Source of the DNA: Chloroflexota bacterium
GTDB taxonomy: Bacteria > Chloroflexota > Dehalococcoidia > SHYD01 > JACQUQ01
DNA: 38,261 bases
Assembly (NCBI GenBank): GCA_016210175.1
Contig: JACQUQ010000142.1
Span: 1 to 38,261, forward strand
Reading direction: 5' to 3'
Shown here one piece after another: positions 7,309 to 38,261 of the stretch. The notes below the pieces were generated by a model, which was not told where the DNA came from, searched no databases, and saw only the letters and a list, made by a program, of their open reading frames with translations. Position numbers and translations under genes: made by a program. Every line of letters starts with the position of its first letter. Position 1 is the stretch's first letter.

Positions 7309-7581
7309 CGAACAGGAGGGAAGGCAACCACACGCGGAGGCGGGGCCTCGGTTCCCGTATCAGGCCTGGTGCGCCAGACGGAGGAGGTGGTCGTGCGGAG
7401 GCGATTCAGGAACAGGCTGGCCACCTAGGGACAGAACTTGGCCGAGTTCGGGCGGAGATCGGAGCAGTCAAGCGGCACACATCGCAGTGGCGCTGAGCAA
7501 CGGGCCGCCCCGCGACGACCACCCGGCATGGTCTCAGGGAAAGCTCAGCGGCGTACACTCGGGGGAACGAGGAGGTGGACG

Positions 7582-8724: not shown

Positions 8725-8743
8725 CGCAGAAAGGTAGATGACT

Positions 8744-9295
8744 ATGAACCGCAGAACCTTGCTCGCGATGGTGCTGGTCCTGGGCGCGCTCGCCGTGAGC
8801 GCCCGCCTATCGCTGGCCCACGGTGAAAGCGTGGTTGTCCAACCAGAGACGCCCCTACCCGGCGACGTGATCACGGTGAAGGGCGCGGGGCTGGGCGCCA
8901 ACCGGACCGTGGAGCTTCACCTTATCGGTCCCGGTGGTGTGGATATCGATTTCAACCCGGCCAAAACGGACGCTGAGGGTGGCTTCACCGTGGAGCTTCG
9001 TCTGCCCACCAACCTCGCGCCCGGCGCCTACCAACTCCGGGCCGTCGGGGAGGAGATAGCGACGGCAGACCTCCGGGTGCTCGCCCCTGGCGGCACGGGC
9101 AGCCCCGCCCCGGCCGCCGTGGTGATGCCGGTACGGGAGCGCTCCCTGGGCGAGACCATTGGCCTGGTCGCGCTGTTTGGCGTGCTGGCCGGGCTGGGAC
9201 TGTTCCTGGCGCGCACCGTCCGGGGGCCTGCGGTTTCCCACGAAGCCGAGGCCGACGCGGTCCGCCCGGTGGCGCAGACGCAGTCCGCCGGCTAA
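8744..9295 (+). CDS. Exported membrane-anchored protein with Ig-like domain
   Basis: The 183-residue product has an N-terminal signal peptide (MNRRTLLAMVLVLGALAV) cut near SLAHG, and an extracytoplasmic beta-sandwich of about 100 residues (VVVQPETPLPGDVITVKGAG, GGFTVELRLPTNLAPGAYQL), similar in style to Ig-like or copper-resistance CopC-like folds. One C-terminal transmembrane helix (about 135-155) precedes a short cytoplasmic tail. The ATG at 8744 was preferred to the one at 8738 because AAGG (8731-8734) is 9 bases before it. It starts 19 bases after the cytochrome b stop and is almost certainly in its operon. A processed N-terminus beginning with His could ligate copper, as in CopC-type proteins, but this is inference. 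Confidence 0.75.
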   Translation: MNRRTLLAMVLVLGALAVSARLSLAHGESVVVQPETPLPGDVITVKGAGLGANRTVELHLIGPGGVDIDFNPAKTDAEGGFTVELRLPTNLAPGAYQLRAVGEEIATADLRVLAPGGTGSPAPAAVVMPVRERSLGETIGLVALFGVLAGLGLFLARTVRGPAVSHEAEADAVRPVAQTQSAG

Positions 9296-9392
9296 TGTAA
9301 CGGCAACTGGTGGACCCGGTTTGCCGGGTGGTCTTGTCGAGCAGCGAGGCCACCTCTTCCCGGCGACGTGCTCCTGACAAAGGGGATATGCC

Positions 9393-10643: not shown

Positions 10644-10706
10644 CGGTCACCGCGGCACGAAAGGAGGTGGGCCGCCCGCCGCGCGCTGCGGAGCCAGAGC
10701 GCTTTC

Positions 10707-10765
10707 CCACCGGGACACCCAGGGCCACGTACCCGCGCGGCAGGTGGCCCTGGGTGTCCCGGTGG
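10707..10765 (+). terminator. Perfect 22-bp inverted repeat, probable terminator
   Basis: Arms at 10707-10728 and 10744-10765 pair perfectly around a 15-nt loop. It stands 64 bases after the helical-repeat lipoprotein. There is no T-run, so it may be a Rho-type stop, an RNA-stabilising 3' end or, less likely, a protein-binding palindrome. Confidence 0.5.
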
Positions 10766-10802
10766 CAACCTGCTCCGGAATGACGCTCGGAGGGTCACGA
10801 CT

Positions 10803-10925
10803 ATGAAGAGGAGAACCCATCGGAACAGGACCGCTCGGGGCACTGGGAGGGATGCGCGCCCCCTTACCATCTCCGGTACCCGGTCGTTCTACCTCGATCG
10901 CCGGTCCTCGCCGGCTCATGCTTGA
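10803..10925 (+). CDS. Possible 40-residue leader ORF
   Basis: An ATG at 10803 is preceded by GGAGGG (10789-10794) with an ideal 8-nt spacer. The 40-residue frame ends at a TGA at 10923-10925, right beside the AGGAGG of the next gene. The peptide is very basic (MKRRTHRNRT start) and resembles no family I know. The ribosome site is the only evidence; it may be a small protein, a leader peptide coupled to the next gene, or chance. Confidence 0.3.
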   Translation: MKRRTHRNRTARGTGRDARPLTISGTRSFYLDRRSSPAHA

Positions 10926-10937
10926 GGAGGTGACTTC

Positions 10938-11372
10938 GTGGCTGACGCTAACGAGACTATCGTCCGCCGTGCCGTGGAGGAGATCCTGGGCAAGGGGAAC
11001 CTGGCCCTGGTGGATGAACTCATCGCCCCGAACTACGTGGGCCATGTTACCTTCATCCCGGAGACCATGCGCGGCCCGGAGGCGGCCCGCAAGGTGGTGC
11101 AAACCTTCCGTACCGCCTTCCCGGACTTGACCTTCACCATCGAGGACTTGTTCACCGCCGGTGACAAGGTCGCCTGCCGCTTTACTGCCCAGGGCACGCA
11201 CCAGGGGGAACTCATGGGCATCCGCCCGACCGGGAGACGGGGCGCCGTGTCGGGGATCGCGCTCTTCCGCGTCGTGAATGGGAAGATTGTGGAAGAGTGG
11301 GCCAACTGGGACGCGCTGAGCATGTTGCAGCAACTCGGCGTGCGCTCGATTGAGGAGCTACGGGCCGCGTAA
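10938..11372 (+). CDS. SnoaL-like / ester cyclase-family protein
   Basis: The 144-residue protein has the cone-shaped NTF2-like fold signature of the SnoaL-like polyketide cyclase family. Visible pieces are IVRRAVEEILGKGNLALVDE, MRGPEAARKVVQTFRTAFPD and a C-terminal FRVVNGKIVEEWANWD. Such proteins are common in bacteria and mostly of unknown substrate; a cyclase, isomerase or hydrolase role is possible. It begins with GTG at 10938 after AGGAGGTGA and ends before a good terminator (11404-11437). Its link to the metal genes on either side is unclear. Confidence 0.88.
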   Translation: MADANETIVRRAVEEILGKGNLALVDELIAPNYVGHVTFIPETMRGPEAARKVVQTFRTAFPDLTFTIEDLFTAGDKVACRFTAQGTHQGELMGIRPTGRRGAVSGIALFRVVNGKIVEEWANWDALSMLQQLGVRSIEELRAA

Positions 11373-11403
11373 CCACAGACGCAGGAGCGCCGCGGCCAGA
11401 GGC

Positions 11404-11437
11404 GGGGGCATACTAGTGTATGCCCCCGTGCTATTTT
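11404..11437 (+). terminator. Intrinsic terminator
   Basis: A 10-bp GC-rich stem GGGGGCATAC/GTATGCCCCC closes the 4-nt loop TAGT (11404-11427), with CTATTTT just after. It ends the SnoaL-like gene and insulates the TCAG array that starts at 11507. Confidence 0.8.
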
Positions 11438-11506
11438 CCGGGCGGCCCCGCAGGGTGGCGCCCGTCGGCACGGGTCGGGGAGGCGCACGGCGCCTGCGGC
11501 CGCGAT

Positions 11507-11561
11507 CCTCAGCCTGCCCTCAGCTACTCCTCAGCTTGAGTTCAGGCGCGACGCCTACGCT
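11507..11561 (+). promoter_or_regulatory. TCAG 11-bp repeat operator with -10 box, upstream of the DUF5676 operon
   Basis: TCAG cores start at 11509, 11520, 11531 and 11542 at exact 11-bp pitch; three of the four are CTCAGC. TACGCT (11556-11561) starts 14 nt after the last core, as in the other arrays. The stretch TTCAGG-N7-CCTAC is shared with the array at 4654. It would drive the four-gene operon from 11613. Confidence 0.82.
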
Positions 11562-11612
11562 AGAGAGAGAGGTCATGGGGAAGGGAAGTAGGTGGGGAGG
11601 AGGCAAGACATC

Positions 11613-12164
11613 ATGAGCGCGCAACCCCAGCCGCGCCAGTTTCCCAGCGGCCAGGTCCAGGCGATGCCGGCCGCGGGACTCCAGGTCGTGCCGCTCGCCA
11701 ACGCGGTGACGGCGGTGGCCCTGGTCTTCTATGTCGCCTGCGCTGCGCTCGCGATCGTGGCGCCGGAGGCCTTGATCGGGTTGTTCCAACCCTGGCTCCA
11801 CGGCTTGACCCTGGAGCCCCTGCGTCCGACGGGACCGTGGTTCCGTCCCGGTGAGTTCGCCATCGGGCTGCTCACCTTCAGCGCCACGTTCTGGCTGGGG
11901 ACCGCTGCCGTCGCCTGGCTGTACAACGCCTGGTCCCGGCGGCAGCCTCGCTACCGGAGCGCGTGGGGAGCGGCGGCATCTCGCGGGGATGCCGCCGCCC
12001 TGAGTTATGAAGGCGACCAGCACGACGCCTGCGCCCGCCGCTCCATGCACTTTTCCGGCGGTGTTCAGGGTGTCCTCGCCGCATCGCCCCGTACCATGGG
12101 GAGGAGACGCGGCACGCCGGGGCACCGCCCTGACCGTTCACACCATGGGCAGAGGAGGGCGTGA
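11613..12164 (+). CDS. DUF5676-like membrane protein with an abnormal C-terminal tail
   Basis: The 183-residue reading frame contains a short two-helix membrane core at about residues 28-107 (LANAVTAVALVFYVACAALA and the closing AWLYNAW). It resembles the small DUF5676 proteins, which normally end just after the WLYN motif. Here about 75 further residues follow, rich in Arg, His, Ala and Gly and unlike a folded domain, and the DNA for that tail holds an 11-bp hairpin (11970-11998). A lost stop codon or a frameshift near 11934 is likely. ATG at 11613 follows GGGGAGGAGG. The frame ends at a TGA that overlaps the next gene's ATG. The role of DUF5676 is unknown; it recurs near metal-resistance genes. 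Confidence 0.6.
   Translation: MSAQPQPRQFPSGQVQAMPAAGLQVVPLANAVTAVALVFYVACAALAIVAPEALIGLFQPWLHGLTLEPLRPTGPWFRPGEFAIGLLTFSATFWLGTAAVAWLYNAWSRRQPRYRSAWGAAASRGDAAALSYEGDQHDACARRSMHFSGGVQGVLAASPRTMGRRRGTPGHRPDRSHHGQRRA
11970..11998 (+). terminator. Hairpin inside the DUF5676 tail, terminator-like
   Basis: Eleven-base arms GCGGCGGCATC and its complement enclose the 7-nt loop TCGCGGG. No T-run follows. It lies about 35 bases after the expected end of the DUF5676 core, where an attenuating hairpin would be normal if the gene once ended there. Confidence 0.35.
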
Positions 12165-12853
12165 TGGCCAAGCGATGGTGGGTGCTTCCCCTGGTGGCCC
12201 TGGGCGGGGTGCTCCTCTCCCAGAAGCTGCGGCCCGGCGTCCTTGAGCGCCTCACCGCCAACGTGCGCGCCTTCGACCTGCCCAGCGCAGGGCTGTACGA
12301 TGCCGTCGTCACGCCGGTGATGGACGGGCTGTACCGGCGGGCCGCCAGGGAAGTCGCCGTGGCCTTCCCCGCGGGGGCGGTGCTGGAGGTCGGGAGCGGG
12401 CCGGGCCAGCTCGCGGTCTACCTGGCGCGGCAGGCGCCCCGGACCAGGGTGGTGGGTCTCGACCTCTCGCCGGACATGGTGGAGCGGGCGCGGCGCAAAG
12501 CGGCGGATGCAGGGCTCGCCGCGCGGGTGCAGTTCGAGGTGGGCGACGTGGCCGCGCTGCCCTTCCTGGACGGCACCTACGATGGAGTGGTGAGTACCTT
12601 CTCGCTCCACCACTGGCAGGACGCCGCTCGCGGGCTGGCCGAGATCCACCGCGTGCTCAAGCCCGGAGGGGAAGCCTGGATCTACGACTTCTCCGACTGG
12701 CTGCGGCAGTGGGCGCACGAAGGCACCGAGTTGGCCCGACTGGCCGCGGCCAGCCCCTTCCGAGGCGGGTCGGTGGAGGTGGTCCGCTGGCCGGGGCCGG
12801 TCCCCCTGGTCCGCCGCCTGCGCCTGCGGCGCAGCGAGCAGGGTGGGCCATAA
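12164..12853 (+). CDS. Membrane-anchored SAM-dependent methyltransferase
   Basis: The 229-residue enzyme has one N-terminal hydrophobic helix (WWVLPLVALGGVLLS, about 5-20) and a class I methyltransferase domain with motif I VLEVGSGPGQLA, the acidic-loop VVGLDLSPDMVERAR and post-I motifs DVAALPFLDGTYDGV and RVLKPGGEAWIYDF. This is the UbiE/Methyltransf_11 pattern; the substrate is unknown and could be a membrane lipid or quinone. The ATG shares one base with the TGA of the preceding gene; an in-frame GTG one codon earlier is also possible. It belongs to the operon behind the 11507 array, with cupredoxin and CcdA-like genes following. Confidence 0.85.
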   Translation: MAKRWWVLPLVALGGVLLSQKLRPGVLERLTANVRAFDLPSAGLYDAVVTPVMDGLYRRAAREVAVAFPAGAVLEVGSGPGQLAVYLARQAPRTRVVGLDLSPDMVERARRKAADAGLAARVQFEVGDVAALPFLDGTYDGVVSTFSLHHWQDAARGLAEIHRVLKPGGEAWIYDFSDWLRQWAHEGTELARLAAASPFRGGSVEVVRWPGPVPLVRRLRLRRSEQGGP

Positions 12854-12901
12854 GGCTGGCAGCCGTGGTCCGGCGTATGCGCCCCGAAAGGAGGAAGCGC
12901 C

Positions 12902-13339
12902 ATGCCTGCCAAGCGTCCCCACCACCGCGCCCGGAGCAGAGAACCGCACTTCGGGTTGCGCCTCGGGGTCTTCCTTGCGGTCGTTGTCCTGGTCGTCGGG
13001 GTCGCGTTCTGGCTGCTCCGCCCTCCCCCATCGTCGCAAAGCGCCGATCTCACGGTCACGATGACGATGGCCGGCTTTCAGCCGGGGAGGCTGACCATCC
13101 CGGCGGGCCAGCCTATTGCCGTGCGGCTGGTCAACCCGGATAGCCGGTTCCACACCGACGGCGGGGGCGTCCACCAGTTCGCGATCCCGGACCTGGGCAT
13201 TGATGTGCGGGTCCAGCCCGAGAGTGCGATGGTGGTGCAGCTGCCCGCGGCCCAGCCGGGGACGTATGCCTTCTACTGCGACGTCTGCTGCGGCGGCAAG
13301 GAGAGCCCGACCATGCAGGGCGCCATCGTGGTTGGCTAG
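12902..13339 (+). CDS. Membrane-anchored cupredoxin with a Cys-rich metal loop
   Basis: The 145-residue protein has one N-terminal transmembrane helix (about 18-39) and an extracytoplasmic cupredoxin domain. Candidate ligands are His84 and His91 (GGGVHQFAI) and the loop YCDVCCGGKESPTMQG with Cys126, Cys129, Cys130 and Met138. Two or more Cys in the ligand loop are more like the binuclear CuA sites of cytochrome oxidase subunit II and N2O reductase than a mononuclear blue-copper site, but the usual C-x3-C-x3-H spacing is not reproduced. It may be a copper carrier or an electron-transfer protein. AAAGGAGG precedes the ATG. The CcdA-like gene follows 18 bases later, which would suit a protein whose cysteines must be kept reduced for metal loading. 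Confidence 0.85.
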   Translation: MPAKRPHHRARSREPHFGLRLGVFLAVVVLVVGVAFWLLRPPPSSQSADLTVTMTMAGFQPGRLTIPAGQPIAVRLVNPDSRFHTDGGGVHQFAIPDLGIDVRVQPESAMVVQLPAAQPGTYAFYCDVCCGGKESPTMQGAIVVG

Positions 13340-13357
13340 CCAGTCTGGAGGGCTACT

Positions 13358-14080
13358 ATGGGAGAACCGGCGCTCCAGCTCACGCTCCCGGCGGTCCTGG
13401 GCGCGGCCCTCATTGACAGTCTGAACCCCTGCGCCTTCGCCCTGCTGCTGGTCTTCGTCGCCACCACCCTCGCCCTGGTACAGCAGCGGGTCGGGAGCGC
13501 GGGCGCCGCGCACGCCCAGTACTGGCTGCTCTCCCGGGGCGGCGTGTACATCCTGGGCATCTTCCTGACCTATCTCGCGCTGGGGTTCGGACTCCTGGGC
13601 ACCCTTGAGCTTGCGCAATCCCTCAGCAGCACGCACCTGGCGAGCCGGGCGGCCGCGCTGTTCGCCCTCGGTCTCGGCCTGCTGACACTCCAGGAGGTGC
13701 TGCTCCCGGAGCTCGGCACCCGGCTCAGCGCCCAGGTGGACATGGCACGCTTGCGCGAGCTGGTGGGGCGGCTGAACGTGCCGGGGCTATTTGGCGCCGG
13801 CGTCCTGGTGGGGCTCTGCACCGTCCCATGCGCAGGCGCGGTCTACCTGGCGGTGCTGGCCTTGCTCTCGGCCCAGACCACGGCCCTGGCGGGCGCGGGC
13901 TACCTGGTGCTCTACAACCTGGTGTTCGTGTCCCCGCTGGTCGTGCTCCTGGCCCTGTCCAGCAGTCCGCCGGTCTACCGGCAACTGGCGCGCTGGCAGG
14001 TACACCACCGGGTGTTCCTCAAGCTGGGGACCAGCGTGGCGGCCATCGCCGTCGGCCTGCTGACGCTGCTGGTGGTCTGA
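13358..14080 (+). CDS. CcdA/DsbD-type thiol-redox transmembrane protein
   Basis: The 240-residue membrane protein has six predicted helices and the two conserved cysteine sites of the CcdA/DsbD-beta family: NPCAFALLL in the first helix and CTVPCAGAVYLAV in the fourth. Such proteins carry reducing equivalents from cytoplasmic thioredoxin to periplasmic thiols, often for cytochrome c maturation or for reducing copper-binding cysteines. Here the immediate upstream partner is the Cys-rich cupredoxin at 12902, a natural client. The ATG at 13358 has TGGAGGG upstream. It is the last gene of the operon; the UbiB gene is convergent 51 bases on. Confidence 0.88.
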   Translation: MGEPALQLTLPAVLGAALIDSLNPCAFALLLVFVATTLALVQQRVGSAGAAHAQYWLLSRGGVYILGIFLTYLALGFGLLGTLELAQSLSSTHLASRAAALFALGLGLLTLQEVLLPELGTRLSAQVDMARLRELVGRLNVPGLFGAGVLVGLCTVPCAGAVYLAVLALLSAQTTALAGAGYLVLYNLVFVSPLVVLLALSSSPPVYRQLARWQVHHRVFLKLGTSVAAIAVGLLTLLVV

Positions 14081-14131
14081 GCCTGCTGGTCGGCCGCGCG
14101 GGGAGCGCCGGGCGCGAGCCGGCCGGCGCGC

Positions 14132-15808
<1,677 letters not shown>

Positions 15809-15835
15809 GTGATCTCCCTGGCGACCGGTGTTGCC

Positions 15836-15890
15836 AGGCTACCACGGCTGGCTGAGCCATGCCTGAGGCGGCCCTGAAGGATGGCTGAAA
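15836..15890 (-). promoter_or_regulatory. TCAG 11-bp repeat operator with -10 box, upstream of the UbiB gene
   Basis: On the minus strand four TCAG cores (plus-strand CTGA at 15852, 15863, 15874 and 15885) have exact 11-bp pitch. The minus-strand hexamer TAGCCT (15841 down to 15836) begins 14 nt after the last core. Predicted transcription would start close to the ATG at 15808. The array lies in the divergent region shared with the regulator gene at 16021, so it could also affect that gene. Confidence 0.82.
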
Positions 15891-15933
15891 GCTGCCGGGG
15901 CAGCGGCATGGATGGAGCGCCCACTTGATACAA

Positions 15934-15939
15934 TATACT
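15934..15939 (+). promoter_or_regulatory. Possible -10 box for the OmpR-type regulator gene
   Basis: TATACT stands in a short AT-rich patch (TTGATACAATATACTATAGG, 15925-15944) within GC-rich DNA, about 80 bases before the regulator ATG. No good -35 element lies 17 bases upstream, so an activator may be needed, or another element of the patch is used. Confidence 0.35.
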
Positions 15940-16020
15940 ATAGGATGGCGATCTCGCCCTCCTGGTGGGAACCTCACACGTCGCCGCCTGAAGCAGGCGG
16001 GCGAGAGGAGCAGCGCGACC

Positions 16021-16695
16021 ATGCAGCGTATCCTGGTGATCGACGACGATCCCGCAGTGACCAGCGTCCTCAAGCGCGGTCTCTCGTATGAGGGGTTTGC
16101 GGTCAGCACGGCCAACTCCGGCACGGAAGGGCTGACCCTGGCACGCGACCAGTCGCCGGACCTGGTGATCCTCGACATCATGATGCCCGGCATCGATGGC
16201 CTGGAAGTGCTCCAGCGCTTGCGCGCCGCGGACCCGCAGCTTCCCGTCATGATGCTCACCGCGAAGGACGCCACGGCCGACCAGGTCCAGGGGCTGGAGC
16301 GCGGGGCCGACGACTACGTGACCAAGCCCTTCACCTTCGAGGTCTTGCTGGCGCGGCTGCGGGCGCTCCTGCGCCGGCGCGATGTGGAACGGCCGGAGGT
16401 GCTGCGCTTCGCCGACCTCAGCCTGAATACCGGGACCCGGCGCGCCCAGCGAGGACCGCGGGAGATCGACCTGACCACTACCGAGTATGACGTGCTCCGG
16501 CAGTTCCTGGAGCACCCGCGCCGGGTCCTGCCCAAGGACTTCCTGATGGACCGGGTGTGGGGCTACGACTTCGGGGGTAATTCCAACGTCCTGGAGGTGT
16601 ATGTGAAGCAGCTCCGCCAGAAGCTCGAAGCGGCGGGCGAGCCGCGGCTGATCCACACCGTGCGCGGCGCCGGCTACCTCCTGCGGGAGGACTAA
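16021..16695 (+). CDS. OmpR/PhoB-family response regulator
   Basis: The 224-residue regulator has a receiver domain (about 2-115) with acidic residues in VIDDD, phospho-acceptor Asp52 (LVILDIMMPG), Thr80 and Lys102 (TKPF). A winged-helix DNA-binding domain follows (about 130-222) with TTTEYDVLRQFLEHPRRVL, a recognition-helix region NVLEVYVKQLRQKL and the wing HTVRGAGYLL. It is followed two bases later by its histidine kinase. OmpR-family proteins bind direct repeats of about 11 bp as head-to-tail dimers. The six four-unit TCAG arrays around it are therefore the likely targets. The ATG at 16021 has GAGAGGAG about 11 bases upstream; upstream in-frame residues are not receiver-like. Confidence 0.93.
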   Translation: MQRILVIDDDPAVTSVLKRGLSYEGFAVSTANSGTEGLTLARDQSPDLVILDIMMPGIDGLEVLQRLRAADPQLPVMMLTAKDATADQVQGLERGADDYVTKPFTFEVLLARLRALLRRRDVERPEVLRFADLSLNTGTRRAQRGPREIDLTTTEYDVLRQFLEHPRRVLPKDFLMDRVWGYDFGGNSNVLEVYVKQLRQKLEAAGEPRLIHTVRGAGYLLRED

Positions 16696-16697
16696 GG

Positions 16698-18131
16698 ATG
16701 TCCCTGCGCCTGCGCCTGGCCCTCTGGTATGGCGGGCTGACCGGCCTGGTGGTCTTCCTGGTCAGCATGCTGTCTTACGCCGCCCATAGCCGCGCCCAGT
16801 ACGATGACCTGGACCGGCAGCTAGAGAGTGCGGCGCACCACGTCGCCGGGGTCCACGCGACCGCCGGGACCTCCGATGAGCTGGCCGCCATGCTGGCGGT
16901 GCCCCTGGCGCCCAACCTGGCGGTACGGGTGTATGGGCCGGCCGGGGCGGTGCTGGTGGCCTCGCCCAACGCCGCCGCAGTCCCGGAGGCGGACCCCGCG
17001 GCCGTGCTGGCCCGTCCGTCGCAGCCGGCCTTTGACGCGCTGGCCGGACTCGCACCGCCGTTCGCGGCGGTCGATGCGGGTCGCGGCGCGTTTGGCCTGG
17101 CGGCCGGCCCCGACGGCAGCCGCTGGCGCCTCTACGTGCTTCCCGGGAACGGCGCGGTGCAGCACCTCCTCGCGGCCGCGCCCCTCGGCAGTATCGATGC
17201 ATCCGTGCTGGCGTTCCGCCGGCTCATCCCGCTGCTGACCCTGGTGGGCATCGTGGTCAGCTTCGTGGGCGGCGGGCTGGTGGCCGGTCGGGCGCTGCGG
17301 CCCGTGGCGTTGCTGACCGCAACCGCGCGGGCCATTGCGCGCTCGCGCAGCTTCCGCCAGCGGGTCCCGGTTGAAGGCGGCCGCGATGAGCTGAGCCAGC
17401 TCGCCGCCACCTTCAACGAGATGCTGGCCAGCCTGGAGCAGGCCTATCAGTCCCAGCAGCGCTTCGTGGCCGATGCCAGCCACGAGCTGCGGGCGCCGCT
17501 CACGGCCATCCAGGGCAACCTGGAGCTCCTGGAGCGCCAGCCCACGATGCCGACCGAGGAGCAACGGGAGGCGATCAGCGAAGCTATCCGGGAAGCGCGC
17601 CGGCTGGCGCGGCTGGTGGCCGACTTGCTGGCGCTGGCCCGCGCCGATGCGGGCGTGGCGCTCCGCCGCGAGCGGGTGGAGTTGGACCGGGTGCTGATGG
17701 ACGCGCTGAGCGAGGCCCGCCACCTGGCGCGCGGCCACCGGCTTGAGGTCACGACGATCGAGCCGGTCGTGATCGCAGGCGACCAGGACTACCTGAAGCA
17801 GCTCCTCCTCATCCTGCTGGACAACGCCCTCAGGTACACGCCCCCTCCAGGCACGGTTGCGCTGAGCCTGCGGCGCAACGGAACCCAGGCCGAGCTTGCG
17901 GTGCGCGATACCGGGGTGGGCATTGCCGCCGCCGATCTCGCCCTGGTGTTCGAGCGCTTCTACCGCGCTGACCCGGCGCATACCCGCAACCCCGGCGGCA
18001 CCGGCCTGGGCCTCCCCATCGCCCGCTGGATCGTCCAGCAGCATGGCGGCGACCTCGTGCTCACCAGCGCGCCCCAGCAGGGCACCACCGCGACCGTCCG
18101 TCTGCCGCTCCGCACCCAGCCAGACCGGTAG
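16698..18131 (+). CDS. Sensor histidine kinase, partner of the OmpR-type regulator
   Basis: The 477-residue kinase has a first transmembrane helix (about 8-28), an extracytoplasmic domain of about 140 residues, a second helix (about 177-197, LLTLVGIVVSFVGGGLVAGRAL) and a HAMP linker. HisKA follows with the phospho-acceptor His in DASHELRAPLTAIQGNLELL, then HATPase with LLDNALRYTPP (N box), VRDTGVGIAAADL (G1) and GGTGLGLPIARWIV (G2). It senses something outside the membrane; the extracytoplasmic part is Ala/Pro-rich with no obvious His/Met metal site, so the signal may be envelope stress rather than free copper. It starts 2 bases after the regulator stop. A TCAG array begins 6 bases after its own stop, serving the next gene. 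Confidence 0.92.
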   Translation: MSLRLRLALWYGGLTGLVVFLVSMLSYAAHSRAQYDDLDRQLESAAHHVAGVHATAGTSDELAAMLAVPLAPNLAVRVYGPAGAVLVASPNAAAVPEADPAAVLARPSQPAFDALAGLAPPFAAVDAGRGAFGLAAGPDGSRWRLYVLPGNGAVQHLLAAAPLGSIDASVLAFRRLIPLLTLVGIVVSFVGGGLVAGRALRPVALLTATARAIARSRSFRQRVPVEGGRDELSQLAATFNEMLASLEQAYQSQQRFVADASHELRAPLTAIQGNLELLERQPTMPTEEQREAISEAIREARRLARLVADLLALARADAGVALRRERVELDRVLMDALSEARHLARGHRLEVTTIEPVVIAGDQDYLKQLLLILLDNALRYTPPPGTVALSLRRNGTQAELAVRDTGVGIAAADLALVFERFYRADPAHTRNPGGTGLGLPIARWIVQQHGGDLVLTSAPQQGTTATVRLPLRTQPDR

Positions 18132-18136
18132 CCGGC

Positions 18137-18191
18137 ATTCAGAGAACCATAAGCTGCGCTTCAGCCTGGCCTCAGGAACCGGCGCGATGGT
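18137..18191 (+). promoter_or_regulatory. TCAG 11-bp repeat operator with -10-like hexamer, upstream of the SPW gene
   Basis: Cores start at 18139, 18150 (imperfect: TAAG), 18161 and 18172, at exact 11-bp pitch. GATGGT (18186-18191) begins 14 nt after the last core. The second unit is the only imperfect core among the 24 in the window. The segment CTCAGGAACC is nearly identical to the end of the array at 19206. Confidence 0.72.
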
Positions 18192-18316
18192 GGCGTTGTG
18201 AGGTTGTGCGTTGCCTGGCCGCGTGGATTGCGCGGAAAACCGTGGGCAACCAGGCAGGCATCTCCTCCCTTCAGCATGGCTGCCCGCAAGCTCACCGAGG
18301 AGGGGAGGTGAGGTGG

Positions 18317-18658
18317 ATGTATTGGGTGACGGGGATTCTCGGCCTGGCGCTGCTGGTGGCGCCGTTTGTGCTGGGCTTCAGCGACCATACCGCGGCGCTG
18401 TGGGCCAGCCTTCTCCTGGGCGGAGCGATCACCCTGGTGTCCGTCGTCAAAGCCCTCGCCCAGGATGCAATGGCGACCTGGGAGTACTGGATAGCGGCGA
18501 TCGCGGGCGTGGTCGCCGTGGTGGCGCCCTTCCTCCTGGGCTTCAGTGACCACGCCGCAGCGCTGTGGACCAGCCTTCTCCTGGGCACGGCAGTGGCGGC
18601 GCTGGCTGGCTATCAGGTGTTCTTTGCCGAGGCAGAGACGCATCCGACGCATGCCTAG
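18317..18658 (+). CDS. SPW-repeat membrane protein
   Basis: The 113-residue protein has four hydrophobic helices arranged as two copies of an SPW-like repeat. The segment PFVLGFSDHTAALWASLLLG (16-35) recurs as PFLLGFSDHAAALWTSLLLG (71-90), a 55-residue (165-bp) pitch, and the DNA of the two copies is still very similar, so the duplication is fairly recent or kept alike. The function of SPW proteins is unknown; they are small integral membrane proteins often induced in stress. ATG at 18317 is preceded by GGGGAGGTGAGG; a GTG three codons earlier is an alternative. The TCAG array at 18137 puts it under the putative regulator. Confidence 0.8.
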   Translation: MYWVTGILGLALLVAPFVLGFSDHTAALWASLLLGGAITLVSVVKALAQDAMATWEYWIAAIAGVVAVVAPFLLGFSDHAAALWTSLLLGTAVAALAGYQVFFAEAETHPTHA

Positions 18659-18696
18659 CGTTAGGCACCGGCACGGCGCGGGGTACGGTCAGATCA

Positions 18697-18730
18697 GGCG
18701 GGCTGCGCAGCAGGGCAGCCTCAGCCCGCC
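18697..18730 (+). terminator. Possible terminator hairpin after the SPW gene
   Basis: Nine-base arms GGCGGGCTG and CAGCCCGCC enclose a 16-nt loop, 39 bases after the SPW stop. There is no T-tract, so confidence is low. Confidence 0.35.
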
Positions 18731-18838
18731 ACGGTCCACCGGCCCCGCGCCACAGTTTTCCACCCGTTTCCTGCGCAGCCACCCACCGCGATCCCACCCG
18801 CGTGCGTCCCTGGGGACGTCTCCTCTGTCCTGGTGAAA

Positions 18839-18893
18839 AGTCAGCGTCTCCTCAGCCCGCCTTCAGCTAGCGCTCAGCAAGCCATGTGATGCT
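18839..18893 (+). promoter_or_regulatory. TCAG 11-bp repeat operator with -10-like hexamer, upstream of the His-rich peptide gene
   Basis: Cores start at 18841, 18852, 18863 and 18874 with exact 11-bp pitch, all followed by C. GATGCT (18888-18893) begins 14 nt after the last core. The GTG start it would serve is at 18925. Confidence 0.8.
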
Positions 18894-18924
18894 CATGAAG
18901 GAAAGCAGGGGAAGGAGGTCAACT

Positions 18925-19128
18925 GTGGAGGAGTTCCTGCAAACCTACGGCACCTGGATCGTTGCCGGTCTTTTCTTCCTGTTCATGCTGTTCATGCACG
19001 GCGGTCACGGGATGGACCACGGGCAGCACGGCGGGCAGCGGCCGCCGCGGTCGGCAGGAACAGATGACGAGACCGACGAGAGGACCGCAGGCGGGTCGCG
19101 GTCACGCGGCTCTGGCGGCTGCCACTGA
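18925..19128 (+). CDS. Small membrane protein with His/Gly/Met-rich tail
   Basis: The 67-residue product has one transmembrane helix (about 10-29, TWIVAGLFFLFMLFM) directly followed by HGGHGMDHGQHGGQ, a strong candidate metal-binding stretch, then a polar Arg/Gly/Ser tail. The GTG at 18925 was chosen because AAGGAGGTC (18912-18920) is ideally placed; an ATG 13 codons earlier is in frame but has no ribosome site. It resembles the small His-tailed membrane proteins found in copper clusters, including the DUF2933-like one at 24707, and is likely a membrane-tethered copper binder. It has its own TCAG operator. Confidence 0.65.
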   Translation: MEEFLQTYGTWIVAGLFFLFMLFMHGGHGMDHGQHGGQRPPRSAGTDDETDERTAGGSRSRGSGGCH

Positions 19129-19205
19129 CCGCCGACAGGTCGTCTGCGGTGCCCTCGACGGTGCGATGAGGAGGGCCGCACCGGCGCTCACGCGGCGGAC
19201 GCACT

Positions 19206-19260
19206 CATCAGCACGCACTCAGTCGTGCTTCAGCTTATCTTCAGGAACCAGTGGCACGAT
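19206..19260 (+). promoter_or_regulatory. TCAG 11-bp repeat operator with -10-like hexamer, upstream of the copper ATPase operon
   Basis: Cores start at 19208, 19219, 19230 and 19241 at exact 11-bp pitch. CACGAT (19255-19260) begins 14 nt after the last core and fits NANNNT. A further AT-containing element, TACAGT at about 19271, is an alternative -10. The operon begins at the ATG at 19322. Confidence 0.78.
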
Positions 19261-19321
19261 GGCCGCAAGATACAGTAGAATGATGATGCACCGCATCCTT
19301 TGGCAATAGGAGGAAGCGTCC

Positions 19322-19522
19322 ATGAGCACCGGCCAGGGTTCCGATCCCTTCCGGCGGCGCAGGCTGCGGGAGCGCCTGCGCCGGTTGCGCCCGGCAGGGC
19401 TGCTCCCGCAGGAAACACAGGCACACCTGTGGTATGCGGGCCGTGAACAGCTCCTGGCGGTGCGGAGCCTGCTCGACACGCTGATCGCCCGTCTGGAGCC
19501 AGAGAAAGAGGAACGGCCGTGA
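19322..19522 (+). CDS. Small basic protein of the copper ATPase operon
   Basis: The 66-residue soluble protein begins with an Arg-rich segment (FRRRRLRERLRRLRP) and ends in a helix LLAVRSLLDTLIARLEPEKE that could form a coiled coil. There are no cysteines. I do not recognise a family. ATG at 19322 has AGGAGG 12 bases upstream, and the stop overlaps the GTG of the HMA-like gene by 4 bases, so it is a genuine operon member. A regulatory or scaffold role beside the metal chaperone is conceivable but unproved. Confidence 0.65.
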   Translation: MSTGQGSDPFRRRRLRERLRRLRPAGLLPQETQAHLWYAGREQLLAVRSLLDTLIARLEPEKEERP

Positions 19523-19749
19523 CCACCCAACGCATCACGCTGCCCATCTTGAACCTGTCCTGTGGCGGCGGCGGCTCGCTCACGGTGGAGCGCGCCCTGG
19601 CGAGGGTATCCGGCGTCGTGCGGGTCTCCGTCAACCCGGCGACCGAAATGGCCTATATCGAGTACGACCCGGCGCGGACCAGCCCAGCCCAGTTGGTCGC
19701 GGCGGTCGAGCGCGTGGGGTTTCAGGCCGGCGAGCCCAGCGTGCGCTGA
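19519..19749 (+). CDS. HMA-like metallochaperone with a degenerate metal motif
   Basis: The 76-residue protein has the beta-alpha-beta-beta-alpha-beta length and pattern of heavy-metal-associated proteins: SLTVERALARVSGVVRVSV, YIEYDPARTSPAQLVAAVERVGF. The metal loop, however, reads NLSCGGGGSLTVE, where CxxC proteins such as CopZ have two cysteines, so only one Cys remains. It may bind Cu(I) through one thiol plus another ligand, pair with the ATPase's degenerate domain, or have lost metal binding. It starts at GTG 19519, overlapping the previous gene, and the ATPase follows 27 bases after the stop. Confidence 0.8.
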   Translation: MTTQRITLPILNLSCGGGGSLTVERALARVSGVVRVSVNPATEMAYIEYDPARTSPAQLVAAVERVGFQAGEPSVR

Positions 19750-19776
19750 GCAGTGACAGGGGGAGGAGTCTGGAGC

Positions 19777-22509
19777 ATGGCACGAATGACCGCACAACCG
19801 CCACCGACGACCGTGCGCGACCCGGTCTGCGGCATGCAGATCGCGGCGGCGAGCGCCTACGCGACGCGCCAGGTGGACGGCGTGGACATCCACTTCTGTT
19901 CACCGAGCTGCGTGGAGCAGTTTGACGCCGCGCCGGAGCGGTACCTGGCCCCGGCAGCGAAAAGCGCTGGAGCGGTGCCCGCGCTGGTGCCCTCGGCGAC
20001 CACCGGCGTTCCGGAAACCATCAGTGGGCCGGTGCGCATCGAGCTGCCCCTGACCGGCGTCGGTCGCTCCGGCGGGCGTGCCCTGGAGCAGGTCCTGCGC
20101 ACCACACCGGGCGTGACGAAGGTCACGGTGAACCTCCAGGACGGCCGGGCCGAGGTCCGCGGCCGGGTCTACCTGGAGTACGATCCGGCCCAGGTCGGCG
20201 TCGGGCAACTGGTGCAGGCCATCCGTGCCGCGGGCGGCGACACCGGCAGCGCCTCCCTGGTCTGGAAGGTGCGCGGCCTGTACTGCGCCGAGTGCGTGAC
20301 CCGCATCGAGGACGCCCTCAAGGCCACGCCGGGCGTTCTGGACGCCGCCATGAACGCGGCCACCGAGGAGGTACAGGTGGAGTACCTGCCCAGCGCCGTG
20401 CGCCTGGAGGCGCTGCGGCAGGCGGTGGAGACCGCGGGACCGTACCAGGCCGTCCCGGCTGCCGCCCCCAGCGAGTCGGCCCTGGACAAGGAGGCTGCGG
20501 GGCAGGAGCGGGAGTACCGCAGCCTGATGCGCAAGTGGTGGTTCGGCTTCGCGGTGGGCGCGCCGACCATGGTCCTCTCCTATCCCTATCTCATCCCAGG
20601 CCTGCGGGACCTCTTTCCGCGGGGCAGCACGCAGCTCTGGGTCATGTGGATGCTGATGGGGGTTGCCAGCCTGGCAGTCATGGCCTACAGCGGCAGCCAG
20701 TTCTTTACCGGCATGTGGCAGGGCCTCAAGCACCGTCAGGCCACCATGCACACTCTCATCGCGGTGGGCACGGGCATCGCCTGGCTGTACTCTACCGTGG
20801 CGCTGCTGTTCCCGCAGATCTTTCCGTCCGAGGAGTTCACCGACGTCTACTACGACGTGACGGTGGTGGTCACCGCGCTGGTCGTCCTCGGGCTGGCTTT
20901 GGAGGTCAAGGCCAAGGGGCGCACCTCCGAAGCCATTCGCAAGCTCATCGGCCTCCAGGCCCGGACCGCCCGCGTGGTGCGGGATGGGGCGGAGCTCGAT
21001 ATCCCCGTCGAGGAAGTCCTGGTGGGCGACGTCGTGATCGTCCGGCCCGGTGAGAAGATCCCGGTGGACGGTCTGGTACTGGAGGGCGGCTCCGCGGTAG
21101 ACGAGAGCATGATCACCGGGGAGTCCATCCCCGTGGCCAAGGGCCCCGGCAACGAAGTGATCGGCGCCACCCTGAACACCACGGGCAGCTTCCGCTTCCA
21201 GGCCACCAAGGTCGGGAAGGATACCGCCCTGGCCAACATCATCCGCATGGTGCAGGACGCCCAGGGGTCGAAGGTGCCCATCCAGCGGGTGGTGGACAGC
21301 GTTTCGGCCTACTTCACGCCGGGGGTCATGATCCTGGCGGTGGTCGGCTTCGTGATCTGGTACGATTTCGGACCGCAGCCGGCCCTGGCCTTTGCCCTCA
21401 TTGTGGGGGTCACCACCCTGATCATCGCCTGCCCCTGCGCGCTGGGGATGGCCACGCCCATGAGCCTGACCACCGGCGTGGGCCTGGGGGCGCAGAACGG
21501 CATCCTGATCCGTTCTGGAAACGCGCTCCAGACCGCCGCGCGCTTGCAGACCATCATCCTGGACAAGACCGGCACCATCACCAAGGGCAAGCCGGAGCTG
21601 ACCAACGTGGTGGCGGACAACGGCTTCGAGGAGGATGAGGTGCTGCGGCTCACGGCCGCGGTGGAGCGGAGCTCCGAGCACCCCTTGGCGGGCGCCATCC
21701 TGGAGGGGGCGCTGGCCCAGGGGCTGGCGCTGCCCGCGGTGGCGAACTTCAGCGCCATCCCCGGCCACGGGGTGGAGGCCGATGTCGCAGGGCGGCACGT
21801 GCTGCTGGGCAACGCCAAGCTCATGGCCGACCGGGGCATCCCCCTGGGCCGCCTGGAGGCCGAGTCCCAGCGCCTGGCCGACGACGGCAAGACGCCCATG
21901 TTTGTGGCCATTGACGGCCGGGCGGCCGGCATCATCGCCGCCGCCGATACGGTCAAGGAGGACTCGGTGGCGGCCATCGCCGCCCTCAAGCGCGAGGGGC
22001 TGGAAGTGGTGATGATCACCGGCGACAACCGGCGCACCGCGGCGGCCATCGGGCGGCAGGTGGGGGTGGACCGGGTCTTGGCGGAGGTGCTGCCCCAGGA
22101 CAAGGCCCACAACGTCCAGAAGCTGCAGCTGGAGGGCAAGAAGGTGGGGATGGTGGGCGATGGCATCAACGACGCCCCGGCCCTGGCCCAGGCCGACGTG
22201 GGTTTCGCCATCGGCACCGGCACCGATGTCGCCATCGAGTCGTCCGACATCACCCTGATCAGCGGGAGTCTGCGGGGCGTGGCGGCCGCCATCGCCATCT
22301 CCCAGGCCACCATGCGCAACGTGTACCAGAACCTGTTCGGCGCCTTCGTCTACAACAGCCTGGGCATCCCGGTGGCCCTGGGGCTGCTCTACCCCTTCAC
22401 CGGACTGCTGCTGTCCCCGCTGATGGCGGCCCTGGCCATGAGCTTCAGTTCGGTCACGGTCATCGCCAACGCCAACCGGCTGAAGCGGTGGAAGTTGAGT
22501 GGTGAGTAA
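19777..22509 (+). CDS. copA: Copper-translocating P1B-type ATPase with N-terminal YHS domain
   Basis: The 910-residue pump has an N-terminal YHS domain (about 13-58, DPVCGMQI then HFCSPSC), a degenerate HMA domain without cysteines ([18 protein letters not shown]), a normal HMA domain with GLYCAEC (Cys170 and Cys173), eight predicted membrane helices and the copper motif [12 protein letters not shown]. The catalytic set is complete: [13 protein letters not shown] with the phospho-acceptor Asp, [23 protein letters not shown]. The CPC motif and YN/MxxSS-type C-terminal helices indicate Cu(I)/Ag(I) export. I chose the ATG at 19777 since GGGGGAGGAG ends 8 bases before it; a GTG at 19753 is poorer. 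It is followed by a cupredoxin gene after an inverted repeat. Confidence 0.95.
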
Positions 22510-34834: not shown

Positions 34835-35637
34835 TGAAGCTCATTGTGGAAGACCTCTCCTTCAATTATGGTCCGAAGCTGGTTCTCAAGGGTGTGACCA
34901 TGGATAGGGCAGAACCGGGCATGGTCACCGCGGCCATCGGCCCCAACGCGGCGGGCAAGAGCACGCTGCTCAAGTGCATCGCCGGGTTGCTCAGAGGACG
35001 GGGCCGGGTGCTCCTGGACGGCCGGGACGCCAAGACCTTCGGCAAGGACCTCATCCGGTACGTGACCTACCTGCCCCAGGAGAACCCCGTGAACGCCGTA
35101 CTGACGGTCTTCGAGGCCGTGCTCCTGGCCCGGCAGCACGCTGGCTCGTGGCAGGTGAGCGACGACGACCTGAATGCGGTCAGCGAGGTGCTGCACGACC
35201 TGGAGATCGACGACCTGGCGCTGCGGTACCTGAACGAGCTGAGCGGCGGCCAGAAGCAGATGGTCTCTATCGCGCAAGCGCTGGTCCGCAACCCCAGGGT
35301 GCTGCTGATGGATGAGCCGACCAGCAGCCTCGACCTCCAGCGGCAGCTCGAAGTGCTGGAGCTGATGCAGCGGGTGACGGCGGAACGCAACATGACCACG
35401 ATCATCGCGCTGCACGACCTGAACCTAGCAGCACGGTATGCCGACCACTTCGTGGTGATGCGGGAAGGGGCGGTGTACGCCGCAGGCGCGGGCCACGAGG
35501 TGCTCACGCCGGAGATGCTGCGGGATGTCTACGGGGTCCATGGTACGGTGTTGCTGGACCAAGGAGGGGTGCCTCAGGTCACCGCGCTGGGATCCCTCAA
35601 GAGAGGCAGGCTGGTGCCGCAGGAAACGATGATCTGA
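34834..35637 (+). CDS. FecE/BtuD-type ABC transporter ATPase
   Basis: The 267-residue ATPase has Walker A GPNAAGKST (36-44), a Q-loop at YLPQENP, signature LSGGQKQM, Walker B VLLMDEPTSSLD and the switch His in IALHDLNLAARY. It powers the FecCD permease encoded immediately upstream with a one-base overlap. Membership of the iron-chelate/cobalamin importer family is clear; the cargo is not. A methyltransferase gene follows 25 bases later and may be co-transcribed. Confidence 0.95.
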   Translation: MKLIVEDLSFNYGPKLVLKGVTMDRAEPGMVTAAIGPNAAGKSTLLKCIAGLLRGRGRVLLDGRDAKTFGKDLIRYVTYLPQENPVNAVLTVFEAVLLARQHAGSWQVSDDDLNAVSEVLHDLEIDDLALRYLNELSGGQKQMVSIAQALVRNPRVLLMDEPTSSLDLQRQLEVLELMQRVTAERNMTTIIALHDLNLAARYADHFVVMREGAVYAAGAGHEVLTPEMLRDVYGVHGTVLLDQGGVPQVTALGSLKRGRLVPQETMI

Positions 35638-35662
35638 AAAGATAGTAAGGAGCGACCACGCG

Positions 35663-36379
35663 ATGGCGAACACGATGACCAATGCCGAGGTAAAGCGCCT
35701 GGTTATCCAGCACTGGGAGCGCCGCGCCGCCGATTTCGACGAGCGGCCGAATCACGGTCTGCACAGTGACGCCCAGCACCAGGCATGGCGGGAGGTGCTG
35801 GGCCGCCTCGCCGGGCCGGATCCCCTGCGGATGCTGGACGTGGGCTGTGGCACTGGGTTCCTCGCGCTCTTGCTGGCCGAGCTGGGTCACCAGGTTGATG
35901 GCATTGACCTGGCAACCGAGATGCTGGAGCGGGCGCGGGCGAAGGCAGCAGCGGCCGGGTTAACCGTGTACTTTCAGACGGGCGATGCCGAAGCACCCGA
36001 CGCGCCGGATGGCACCTACGACCTGGTGGTCGAGCGCCACGTCATCTGGACGTTGCCGGATCCGCCACGGGCCGTACGCTCCTGGTTGCGGGTGCTGAGG
36101 CCGGGCGGTCGGATGGTCCTGATTGAGGGGAGCGGGGGCATCCGGCAGGGGCAGGAGATGCCGGCGGAGTATGCGGAGATCTACGGGCAACTCCCGTTCT
36201 CGACGGACCGCTCCAGCGAACGGCTCACCGCTTTCCTCCAAGATCAGGGCGTGGTGGATCTGGTGGTGGAGCCGCTCATGGATCCGGTGCTCTGGGGGAG
36301 TGCGAACACCGGGCAGCGCTATGCCATCATCGGCCGCAAGCCACGGTACCGCGACGCACTCCCCATGCGGTCAGCGTGA
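35663..36379 (+). CDS. SAM-dependent methyltransferase linked to the ABC importer
   Basis: The 238-residue class I methyltransferase has motif I MLDVGCGTGFLALLLAELG, the acidic loop VDGIDLATEMLERAR, VERHVIWTLPDPPRAV and LRVLRPGGRMVLIEG. Its N-terminus, KRLVIQHWERRAADFDE, recalls methyltransferases placed next to iron-complex ABC importers in other bacteria and archaea, so it may modify or help process the imported molecule. AAGGAG lies 11 bases before the ATG. It starts 25 bases after the ATPase stop and is probably in the same operon. The substrate is unknown. Confidence 0.88.
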   Translation: MANTMTNAEVKRLVIQHWERRAADFDERPNHGLHSDAQHQAWREVLGRLAGPDPLRMLDVGCGTGFLALLLAELGHQVDGIDLATEMLERARAKAAAAGLTVYFQTGDAEAPDAPDGTYDLVVERHVIWTLPDPPRAVRSWLRVLRPGGRMVLIEGSGGIRQGQEMPAEYAEIYGQLPFSTDRSSERLTAFLQDQGVVDLVVEPLMDPVLWGSANTGQRYAIIGRKPRYRDALPMRSA

Positions 36380-36394
36380 CGGTAGCCGGCCCGG

Positions 36395-36625
36395 AACTGG
36401 GCGGGGATGCGACGCATGGCCCTGTACTGCTTGCTTCGTGTGATGCCCTGGGGTGAAGACCACCGTACCGTCACGGACTGGCCGTTGTCCACAGTTTGGA
36501 GGTGGACTTTGGTCGAGTAGTCGCCTTGGCTCCGTCCCAGGGCTTGGGCGGCCGGGTCCCCTTTTTGCCCCGACCGCATGCCGGTGAGCACGAACCACGG
36601 TGCCAGCGAGACGTGCGCGGTCCAA
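36395..36625 (-). pseudogene. IS5-family (IS427-like) transposase remnant, frameshifted
   Basis: Three neighbouring minus-strand reading frames together spell pieces of an IS5/IS427-type transposase: LAGTVVRAHRHAVGAKRG, then (shifted frame) AQALGRSQGDYSTKVHLQT and VDNGQSVTV, then (frame of the first) VVFTPGHHTKQAVQ. The order and content match the conserved 'DGTVVRAHxHAAGA / QALGRSRGGxSTKxHL' stretch of these enzymes. Only about 75 codons remain, without a full start or end, and I see no intact terminal inverted repeats. It is a dead fragment lying between the importer operon and the tRNA scar. Confidence 0.65.
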
Positions 36626-36719
36626 GAATCGGATCAGTCAGGGCAGCACAGACGTTGCACACGCCCTAGCCAGTGACATCGGGTTGGCATCAACGCACCA
36701 AGGAAACCACAAAGCACAA

Positions 36720-36749
36720 GGCCGGAACCCCAATATCGAGGTCCCGGCC
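36720..36749 (-). terminator. Native terminator of the tRNA-Leu
   Basis: On the minus strand GGCCGGGACC pairs with GGTTCCGGCC (one G-T wobble) and TTGTGCTTT follows. It lies 22 bases downstream of the tRNA-Leu 3' end. Its presence indicates that this side of the tRNA fragment is original chromosome. Confidence 0.65.
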
Positions 36750-36771
36750 TCCGTGTCGTTCCCATATGTAG

Positions 36772-36826
36772 TACCGAGGGTGGGACTCGAACCCACACGC
36801 CCCTTCCGGGGTCAGCGGATTTTAAG
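36772..36826 (-). other. 3' half of tRNA-Leu(UAA), probable attachment-site scar
   Basis: Read on the minus strand: the 3' part of the anticodon loop and its arm CTTAAAATCCGC, a long variable arm with CCCC/GGGG, the T arm GTGGG-TTCGAGT-CCCAC, the acceptor strand CCTCGGT and discriminator A, as in leucine tRNAs. The 5' half (acceptor ACCGAGG or GCCGAGG, D arm and GCGGA anticodon strand) does not occur where it should, upstream of the anticodon loop. Breakpoints in the anticodon loop are typical of tyrosine-recombinase integration. Thus the fragment is likely the displaced 3' end left by an element lying toward higher coordinates. The intact tRNA would be at the other end, outside the window. 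Confidence 0.7.
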
Positions 36827-36909
36827 GGAGCCGCGCCCCCCTTCACTCCTCCGGTTTTCTTCCTCGATAGCCTCCAAAATGTTCCGCCATTTGCCAGCGT
36901 AAGACAGGC

Positions 36910-36930
36910 CGTTGGCTTATCGTTGGCTTA
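36910..36930 (+). repeat. Short tandem repeat near the element end
   Basis: CGTTGGCTTA occurs at 36910-36919 and 36921-36930, an 11-base pitch. It lies about 85 bases inside the presumed element boundary, where integrase or excisionase binding sites are often found. Two copies only; could be chance. Confidence 0.3.
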
Positions 36931-37016
36931 CCACCACGAGGGCAGGCTCTCAGGCGGGGCCTGCTCTTTCGCGCGCTTTTAGGCTCCCAGTGGGACAGCA
37001 TGGAGACCGCATACCG

Positions 37017-37865
37017 ATGCCTCTCGATCTCACCCTCGCCGATGTGCAGGTGCTTCAAGGGGACTGCCGCGAGCTGTCGCGGGAACTCCCGGACGACTGC
37101 GCGCAGCTTGTCCTGACCGACCCACCCTACAACCTGGGCATCCCCTACCCGGACTACGAGGACCGGCTGCCGTGGGAACGCTACTGGGACATGGCGCACC
37201 AGGTCCTCACGGAGTGCAAGCGCATTCTGCGGCCGGGGGGCGTCCTCGCCGCGCTGCTGCCCTTCACCGCCCAAGAGATGGCTGACGGACCGCCCGGCCA
37301 CAACCGGAAGCGGGTAGAACGCCGGCGCGTCGGACCGCCAGTCCCCATGCTGGCCTACTGGATCGCGCTGACCCAGGACGCGGGTCTGCTCTACGAGGAT
37401 GTCATCGCGGTCATCCATGCGTGGAACGGGGAGGGCGAAGGAACTGCCATCGGGACCGCCATCGGCGGCTCGTCCCGTCCGCGCATGAGGACGGTGGCCC
37501 GTGCCCTGTTGGTGTGCTTTAACGAGAGCGCTGCCGTCCCTGGCCGGAGCGGGAAGTGGGGCTGGGGTGCGGGCGACCTCCCGATCCTGGAGGCGTGCAA
37601 GAACGCCTGGTACGTCCGACCTGCGTGGGGCAGCGGGGTGGGCCACCCGACGCCCATGCCGGCGTTGGCCGCGGCGCGGGCGATCCGGCTCTGGAGCAAC
37701 GAGGGGGACCTCGTGGTCGATCCGTTCTGCGGCTCAGGAGTAGTGTTGCAGGAGGCTCGCAACGCCGGCCGCCGGGCGGTGGGGATAGACATCAGTAGGA
37801 CGTCCTGCGGGATTAGTGAGCGGCGACTGAGCCAGCAGGTAATGTGCTTCACCGGTGACGCATGA
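37017..37865 (+). CDS. DNA methyltransferase (N4-cytosine/N6-adenine, beta-type order)
   Basis: The 282-residue enzyme has catalytic motif IV TDPPYNLGIPYPDYEDRL (DPPY) near the N-terminus and the SAM-binding motif I VVDPFCGSGVVLQEARNAG near the C-terminus, the order of beta-class DNA methyltransferases. DPPY is used by N6-adenine methyltransferases, while SPPY is usual for N4-cytosine; adenine is therefore favoured. No restriction endonuclease partner is visible. In an integrated element it probably protects element DNA or marks it for replication control. ATG at 37017 was chosen because residues upstream of it are unlike the family; GGAGA is about 10 bases before. It overlaps the next gene by 4 bases. 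Confidence 0.88.
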   Translation: MPLDLTLADVQVLQGDCRELSRELPDDCAQLVLTDPPYNLGIPYPDYEDRLPWERYWDMAHQVLTECKRILRPGGVLAALLPFTAQEMADGPPGHNRKRVERRRVGPPVPMLAYWIALTQDAGLLYEDVIAVIHAWNGEGEGTAIGTAIGGSSRPRMRTVARALLVCFNESAAVPGRSGKWGWGAGDLPILEACKNAWYVRPAWGSGVGHPTPMPALAAARAIRLWSNEGDLVVDPFCGSGVVLQEARNAGRRAVGIDISRTSCGISERRLSQQVMCFTGDA

Positions 37866-38261
37866 GCATCTACGTCTCTGATGCCGTTTGGGAGCACTCG
37901 CAGCAGAGCGGCAGCGCGCTTACCGTGCTGCTGGCCTTGGCGCGCCATGCCAATGACCAGGGCTACTGCTTTCCCTCCCTCGCGAAACTCATGGCTGAAA
38001 CACGCCTGAGCGAGCGTGCCGTGCGGATGCACCTGCGAGGCCTGGAGGAGGCAGGGGAGATAAAAACGGAGCAGGGGCGCGGGAGGGGCAACGTCAACGT
38101 CTACTGGATTATAGTCGGTCCCTACGCCCAGCGCGGAGAAAAGGGGCAAAATCCGGCAGAAAAGGGGCAACCTGCTGCAACAAAAGGGGCAATCCAGCGC
38201 GGAGAAAAGGGGCAAAATCCGGCAGAAAAGGGGCAACCTGCTGCAACAAAAGGGGCAATCC
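37862..38261 (+). CDS. Helix-turn-helix replication-initiator-like protein (partial, runs off the window)
   Basis: The frame opens with ATG at 37862, overlapping the methyltransferase stop, and has no stop before the window end (133 codons seen). Residues 1-85 form a winged-helix type domain: MSIYVSDAVWEHSQQSG, LTVLLALARHANDQGYCFPS, LAKLMAETRLSERAVRMHL, EEAGEIKTEQGRG. This is the HTH_36-like domain seen at the N-terminus of phage and plasmid replication proteins. After residue 89 it enters a tandem 22-residue repeat rich in KGQ and EKG. It is probably the replication initiator or replisome organiser of the integrated element. The repeats end exactly at the window edge, which may be a contig break. 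Confidence 0.75.
   Translation, partial: MSIYVSDAVWEHSQQSGSALTVLLALARHANDQGYCFPSLAKLMAETRLSERAVRMHLRGLEEAGEIKTEQGRGRGNVNVYWIIVGPYAQRGEKGQNPAEKGQPAATKGAIQRGEKGQNPAEKGQPAATKGAI
38129..38261 (+). repeat. 66-bp tandem direct repeat inside the HTH gene
   Basis: Two copies of a 66-bp unit (38129-38194 and 38195-38260) appear identical, and base 38261 matches the first base of a third. Each unit contains three AAAAGGGGCAA-like motifs. The length is 22 codons, so the reading frame is kept. Iterons inside the initiator gene are known from lambdoid phages (the O gene), and this could be an origin of the same design. Confidence 0.85.

Follow-up and report, generated by a model that had tools for sequence, protein, structure and literature searches.

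Prophages and genomic islands whose integration sites lie in the anticodon loop of a tRNA gene have been described previously (Williams 2002; Islander, PMC4383910), and among the 3919 islands of the Islander collection, 2083 have anticodon-centred sites and 3760 have a 3′ fragment. Mycobacteriophages with tRNA-dependent lysogeny (PMC10865867) have a core of about 10 bp, which does not rebuild the tRNA, and need to bring a replacement tRNA of their own. The locus described here lies at the right end of a 38,261-bp stretch of DNA from a Chloroflexota bacterium (the window, by which we mean that whole stretch), and resembles the first group in having a displaced 3′ tRNA fragment at one end and an integrase beside the other, with a core that starts at the anticodon loop and reaches the tRNA 3′ end; we found no difference in kind. 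It shares with the mycobacteriophages a tyrosine integrase using an attB that overlaps a tRNA gene, but differs in that its 59-bp core is not a short one and spans the whole 3′ part, from loop to discriminator. No phage-encoded tRNA was seen in the window or in C263, the contig that continues it. We conclude, with a probability of about 0.94, that the fragment is the attL of an integrated temperate tailed phage, which agrees with the preliminary description of this DNA, in which the fragment was taken for the left end of an integrated element.

The features at the host junction are as follows.

36718–36751, minus strand: hairpin on the host side, likely the native terminator of the tRNA gene (terminator-like scan match; fold z = −6.3)
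36768–36826, minus strand: 59-bp att core at attL (identical copy at C33:19964–20022; alignment to intact tRNA-Leu(UAA) genes)

The minus-strand sequence of 36768–36826, CTTAAAATCCGCTGACCCCGGAAGGGGCGTGTGGGTTCGAGTCCCACCCTCGGTACTAC, corresponds to the 3′ part of a tRNA-Leu(UAA) gene, beginning with the first base of the anticodon loop and extending 4 bases beyond the discriminator. When the fragment is aligned with intact tRNA-Leu(UAA) genes from genomes of this class, the loop (CTTAAAA), the variable arm, the T arm, and the 3′ strand of the acceptor stem all match, and the alignment breaks exactly upstream of the anticodon loop. The fragment had been described as starting within the anticodon loop without a 5′ half, and the alignment bears this out, with the refinement that the whole 7-base loop is included. 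ARAGORN called no tRNA in the window, and the 5′ stem and loop of the tRNA (GCGGATTTTAAGTCCGC) are absent from the entire assembly with up to 2 mismatches allowed. The displaced 3′ fragment is correctly oriented, with the element extending from it in the direction where the 5′ half would be, the arrangement of the Islander criterion. The hairpin at 36718–36751 is on the low-coordinate side, where a native terminator had been proposed, and its T-tract is weak.

The genome searched is the window's own assembly, which consists of 274 contigs totalling 3.47 Mb with an estimated contamination of 6.6%, and in which the window contig is C105. The core has exactly one more copy in the 3.47-Mb genome, at C33:19964–20022 (100% identical, E 4.3e-24, and so not a chance match), constituting the final 59 bases of C33, which stops on the last core base. 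A second copy had been predicted in the preliminary description, with its absence named as speaking against an integrated element; the copy is present and identical over 59 bp, although the core is somewhat longer than the 55 or so bases estimated. The integrase that had also been predicted is located beside this copy. Genes in C33 are ordered toward the core as a Rad52-type recombinase, an HTH_17 excisionase-like gene, and a tyrosine integrase of 398 aa (PF00589, E 2e-17; phrog_1, E 2e-46) whose end is 74 bp short of the core; deeper in the contig are the genes for tape measure, connector, and repressor.

Between the core and the first phage gene of the window there is an intergenic segment with repeats that also occur in the corresponding segment of C33.

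36827–37016, no strand assigned: phage arm of attP kept at attL, between the core and the methyltransferase gene (inverted and direct repeats in common with the C33 arm and not with the host side)
36851–36865, no strand assigned: CCGGTTTTCTTCCTC, a perfect inverted copy of GAGGAAGAAAACCGG in the C33 arm (C33 about 19914–19928); the longest inverted match, at 15 bp
36909–36932, no strand assigned: two tandem CGTTGGCTTA repeats with a period of 11 (12-bp direct match between the arms)

The C33 arm contains a single CGTTGGCTTACC, a further copy of the CGTTGGCTTA repeat of the window arm. Neither the length of the 15-bp inverted match nor that of the 12-bp direct match was reached in any of 2000 shuffles, and there are no matching arm repeats on the host side of the window. 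Because these repeats are common to both phage flanks, we assign both junctions to a single element. The 15-bp inverted repeat looks like a putative arm-type or accessory site of attP, and the tandem CGTTGGCTTA repeats look like putative arm sites for the integrase or the excisionase.

To the right of the arm, the window contains two phage genes and the beginning of a repeat array.

37017–37865, plus strand: phage DNA methyltransferase of the N6/N4 type (PF01555, E 4e-25; phrog_67, E 3e-40; profile scores taken on a 317-aa frame from 36912)
37862–38261, plus strand: 5′ part of an O-like replication initiator with an HTH_36 domain (phrog_1032, E 4e-19; PF13730), continuing into C263 to base 501
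38128–38261, no strand assigned: iteron array within the initiator gene, two 66-bp units with AAAAGGGGCAA motifs (tandem repeats; the array resumes at the start of C263, 1–110)

The 4-base overlap of the methyltransferase and initiator genes, noted in the preliminary description, is present in the sequence. C105 and C263 share a 37-bp exact overlap in the iteron array, and the initiator frame is open across the join, giving a protein of 287 aa in total. The array is the probable phage origin and the place where the assembly breaks. We also note that the AAAAGGGGCAA iterons inside the O-like initiator gene resemble the arrangement in lambda, where the origin lies within gene O.

The interior of the prophage is found on C263 and C33. 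C263 encodes a Mu Gam-like protein, a RuvC-like resolvase, the large terminase, the portal, a head morphogenesis protein, a scaffold protein, and the major head protein, and with C33 it provides the gene set of a temperate tailed phage (terminase, portal, major head, tape measure, integrase, and repressor, all from PHROGs matches). At its far end C263 runs into the left end of an IS3-like element (17059–17177), and the right end of such an element opens C33 (1–111). This element is multicopy; its ends recur identically on several other contigs, and it breaks many contigs of this genome. The C263 and C33 flanks have in common a 3-bp GAT duplication and an open frame (MPARTLAATRQRTFLPTD before the element and IAGCRLWVAADN after it), and because of these two features we take the contigs to be neighbours. 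GAT is also present at one other right end of the element, on C58, but we favour C33 as the partner of C263 from its reading frame and phage content. In this arrangement the insertion splits an unassigned prophage gene at its codon 18, in the interval that separates the head genes from those for head closure and the tail. The assembled parts (the right end of C105, C263, and C33) sum to about 38.5 kb, and IS3 elements have sizes that put the unassembled interior of the insertion at about 1 kb; the tailed prophage is thus about 39.5 kb in length with the interior of the element included. All of these contig links are made from sequence overlaps and not from reads, and they illustrate how att cores, iterons, and insertion sequences can serve as joining points for a fragmented assembly. 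The stretch of C263 from the head genes to the IS3-like insertion (10680–15054) encodes a B12-binding radical SAM protein along with two proteins that resemble glycosyltransferases, an unusual cargo for a phage late region.

These observations are consistent with a simple model of integration. The phage tyrosine integrase would have recombined attP with an attB in the anticodon loop of the host tRNA-Leu(UAA) gene, with the crossover predicted to fall within the 7-base loop. Since the 3′ part of the tRNA is contained in the phage core, the original 3′ piece would have been displaced to the window junction, and at the opposite end its phage counterpart should be joined to the 5′ half, restoring the tRNA at attR. 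The core includes the loop, the variable arm, the T arm, the acceptor strand, and the discriminator, so a complete tRNA-Leu(UAA) should result from integration. No intact or rebuilt tRNA-Leu(UAA) gene, the third item predicted in the preliminary description, was found in the assembly, in which C33 terminates at the last core base and the junction of core and 5′ half is absent.

The prophage may well be able to excise, and its integrase, excisionase-like, initiator, terminase, portal, head, and tape measure genes are all open frames and its two cores are still identical. These features argue against a decayed remnant, a defective prophage that no longer excises or forms virions, although the interruption of a gene at codon 18 by the IS3-like element points in that direction; such decay is possible but unlikely, and since it concerns present activity it is compatible with the attL reading. 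A second explanation is that there is no lysogen, and that a host contig was wrongly joined at the 59-bp repeat to a free phage genome (its attP) from another cell or organism. In favour of a chimeric contig, the junction falls precisely on the repeat, C33 finishes with the last base of that repeat, and the assembly is fragmented, with contamination of 6.6% estimated for the bin. However, the phage contigs carry IS ends that are 100% identical to those on other contigs of the bin, the GC content of the host part (0.68) is similar to that of the phage parts (0.65–0.66), and the phage core matches 59 bp of this host's own tRNA-Leu at 100% identity whereas the tRNAs of its relatives are only 75–85% identical there, and we regard a chimera as very improbable. 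Finally, the tRNA-Leu(UAA) genes of some bacteria are interrupted in the anticodon loop by group I introns, but the chance that the fragment is part of a split or intron-containing gene, which the preliminary description had named as an objection to its own reading, is negligible, with no intron family scored in 35600–38261, phage proteins encoded in the DNA to the right, and a second copy of the core adjoining an integrase gene; the second core and the integrase exclude such a gene in practice.

Returning to the integrated prophage, C30 is a candidate for its right host flank. C30 contains tRNA-Leu(GAG) followed by tRNA-Gly(GCC) (5716–5929) and ends exactly at the 3′ end of tRNA-Gly(GCC), and in several relatives a tRNA-Leu(GAG)-Gly pair precedes Cys-Leu(UAA). 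No tRNA-Cys was found in this genome, protein-gene synteny gave no confirmation of C30 as the right host flank, and its assignment to that position is a guess. Two other loci in the genome have a similar appearance. In C182 (3098–5479), a 3′ fragment of tRNA-Leu(CAA) that starts in the anticodon loop (about 4231–4291) is located between a broken and an intact integrase gene, and is another anticodon-loop integration site. In C41 (about 1501–1561), a 3′ fragment of tRNA-Arg(UCU) is found 104 bp from the end of the contig with no 5′ anticodon stem to match it, and is possibly a third. We also note that the host part of the window (6181–22509) contains copper-handling genes, encoding a multicopper-oxidase-like protein, a heavy-metal-type sensor kinase, and a CopA-type P-type ATPase.

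The phage has no close relative in the collections searched. No close relatives of the integrase were found in the GTDB-contig and IMG/VR collections, and the collections searched contained no close relatives of the terminase; the tape measure and portal proteins have only distant relatives in the viral contigs searched, and the methyltransferase has none there. A terminase search of 393 same-class genomes identified three relatives, and in the two of these that were examined there was no match to the early replication genes or to the genes of the attachment ends, apart from one weak integrase match. The neighbourhoods of related Rad52 genes contain no match to the other phage proteins. The mode of integration is an ordinary, textbook one, and it is the phage itself that is new to the collections searched. 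With both ends of this new prophage fixed, an integrase with a defined target, the anticodon loop of tRNA-Leu(UAA), has been obtained together with both arms of its attP.

A further point emerges from the order of the genes around the attachment site. In the circular phage the genes run in one direction from those on the repressor/cro side to Rad52, Xis, Int, attP, the methyltransferase, and the initiator, and in the prophage the replication genes are at the far end, adjoining a host gene cluster. The predictions gave no plus-strand terminator from int to the initiator and no sigma-70-like promoter from attL to the methyltransferase gene, with a sigma-70 model that may not be that of this host. 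There is a GC-rich hairpin at about 36938–36971, which folds no better than shuffled sequences. Judging from gene order, the att site might lie inside an early transcription unit, such that integration would cut the replication genes from the early promoter and excision would reconnect them; we offer this tentatively and consider it rather doubtful. The closest parallel is the excision-coupled expression of the Tn916 type (PMC11658703), in which xis and int likewise run toward att and the replication genes lie beyond it in the same direction, a topology in which one transcript could span att only in the circle. The likeness to Tn916 drawn here is one of gene order, and the element is a phage and not a conjugative element. 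If the early operon is indeed split in this way, it would be a prophage version of Tn916 excision-coupled expression, and would be the only aspect of this locus to raise a fresh question.
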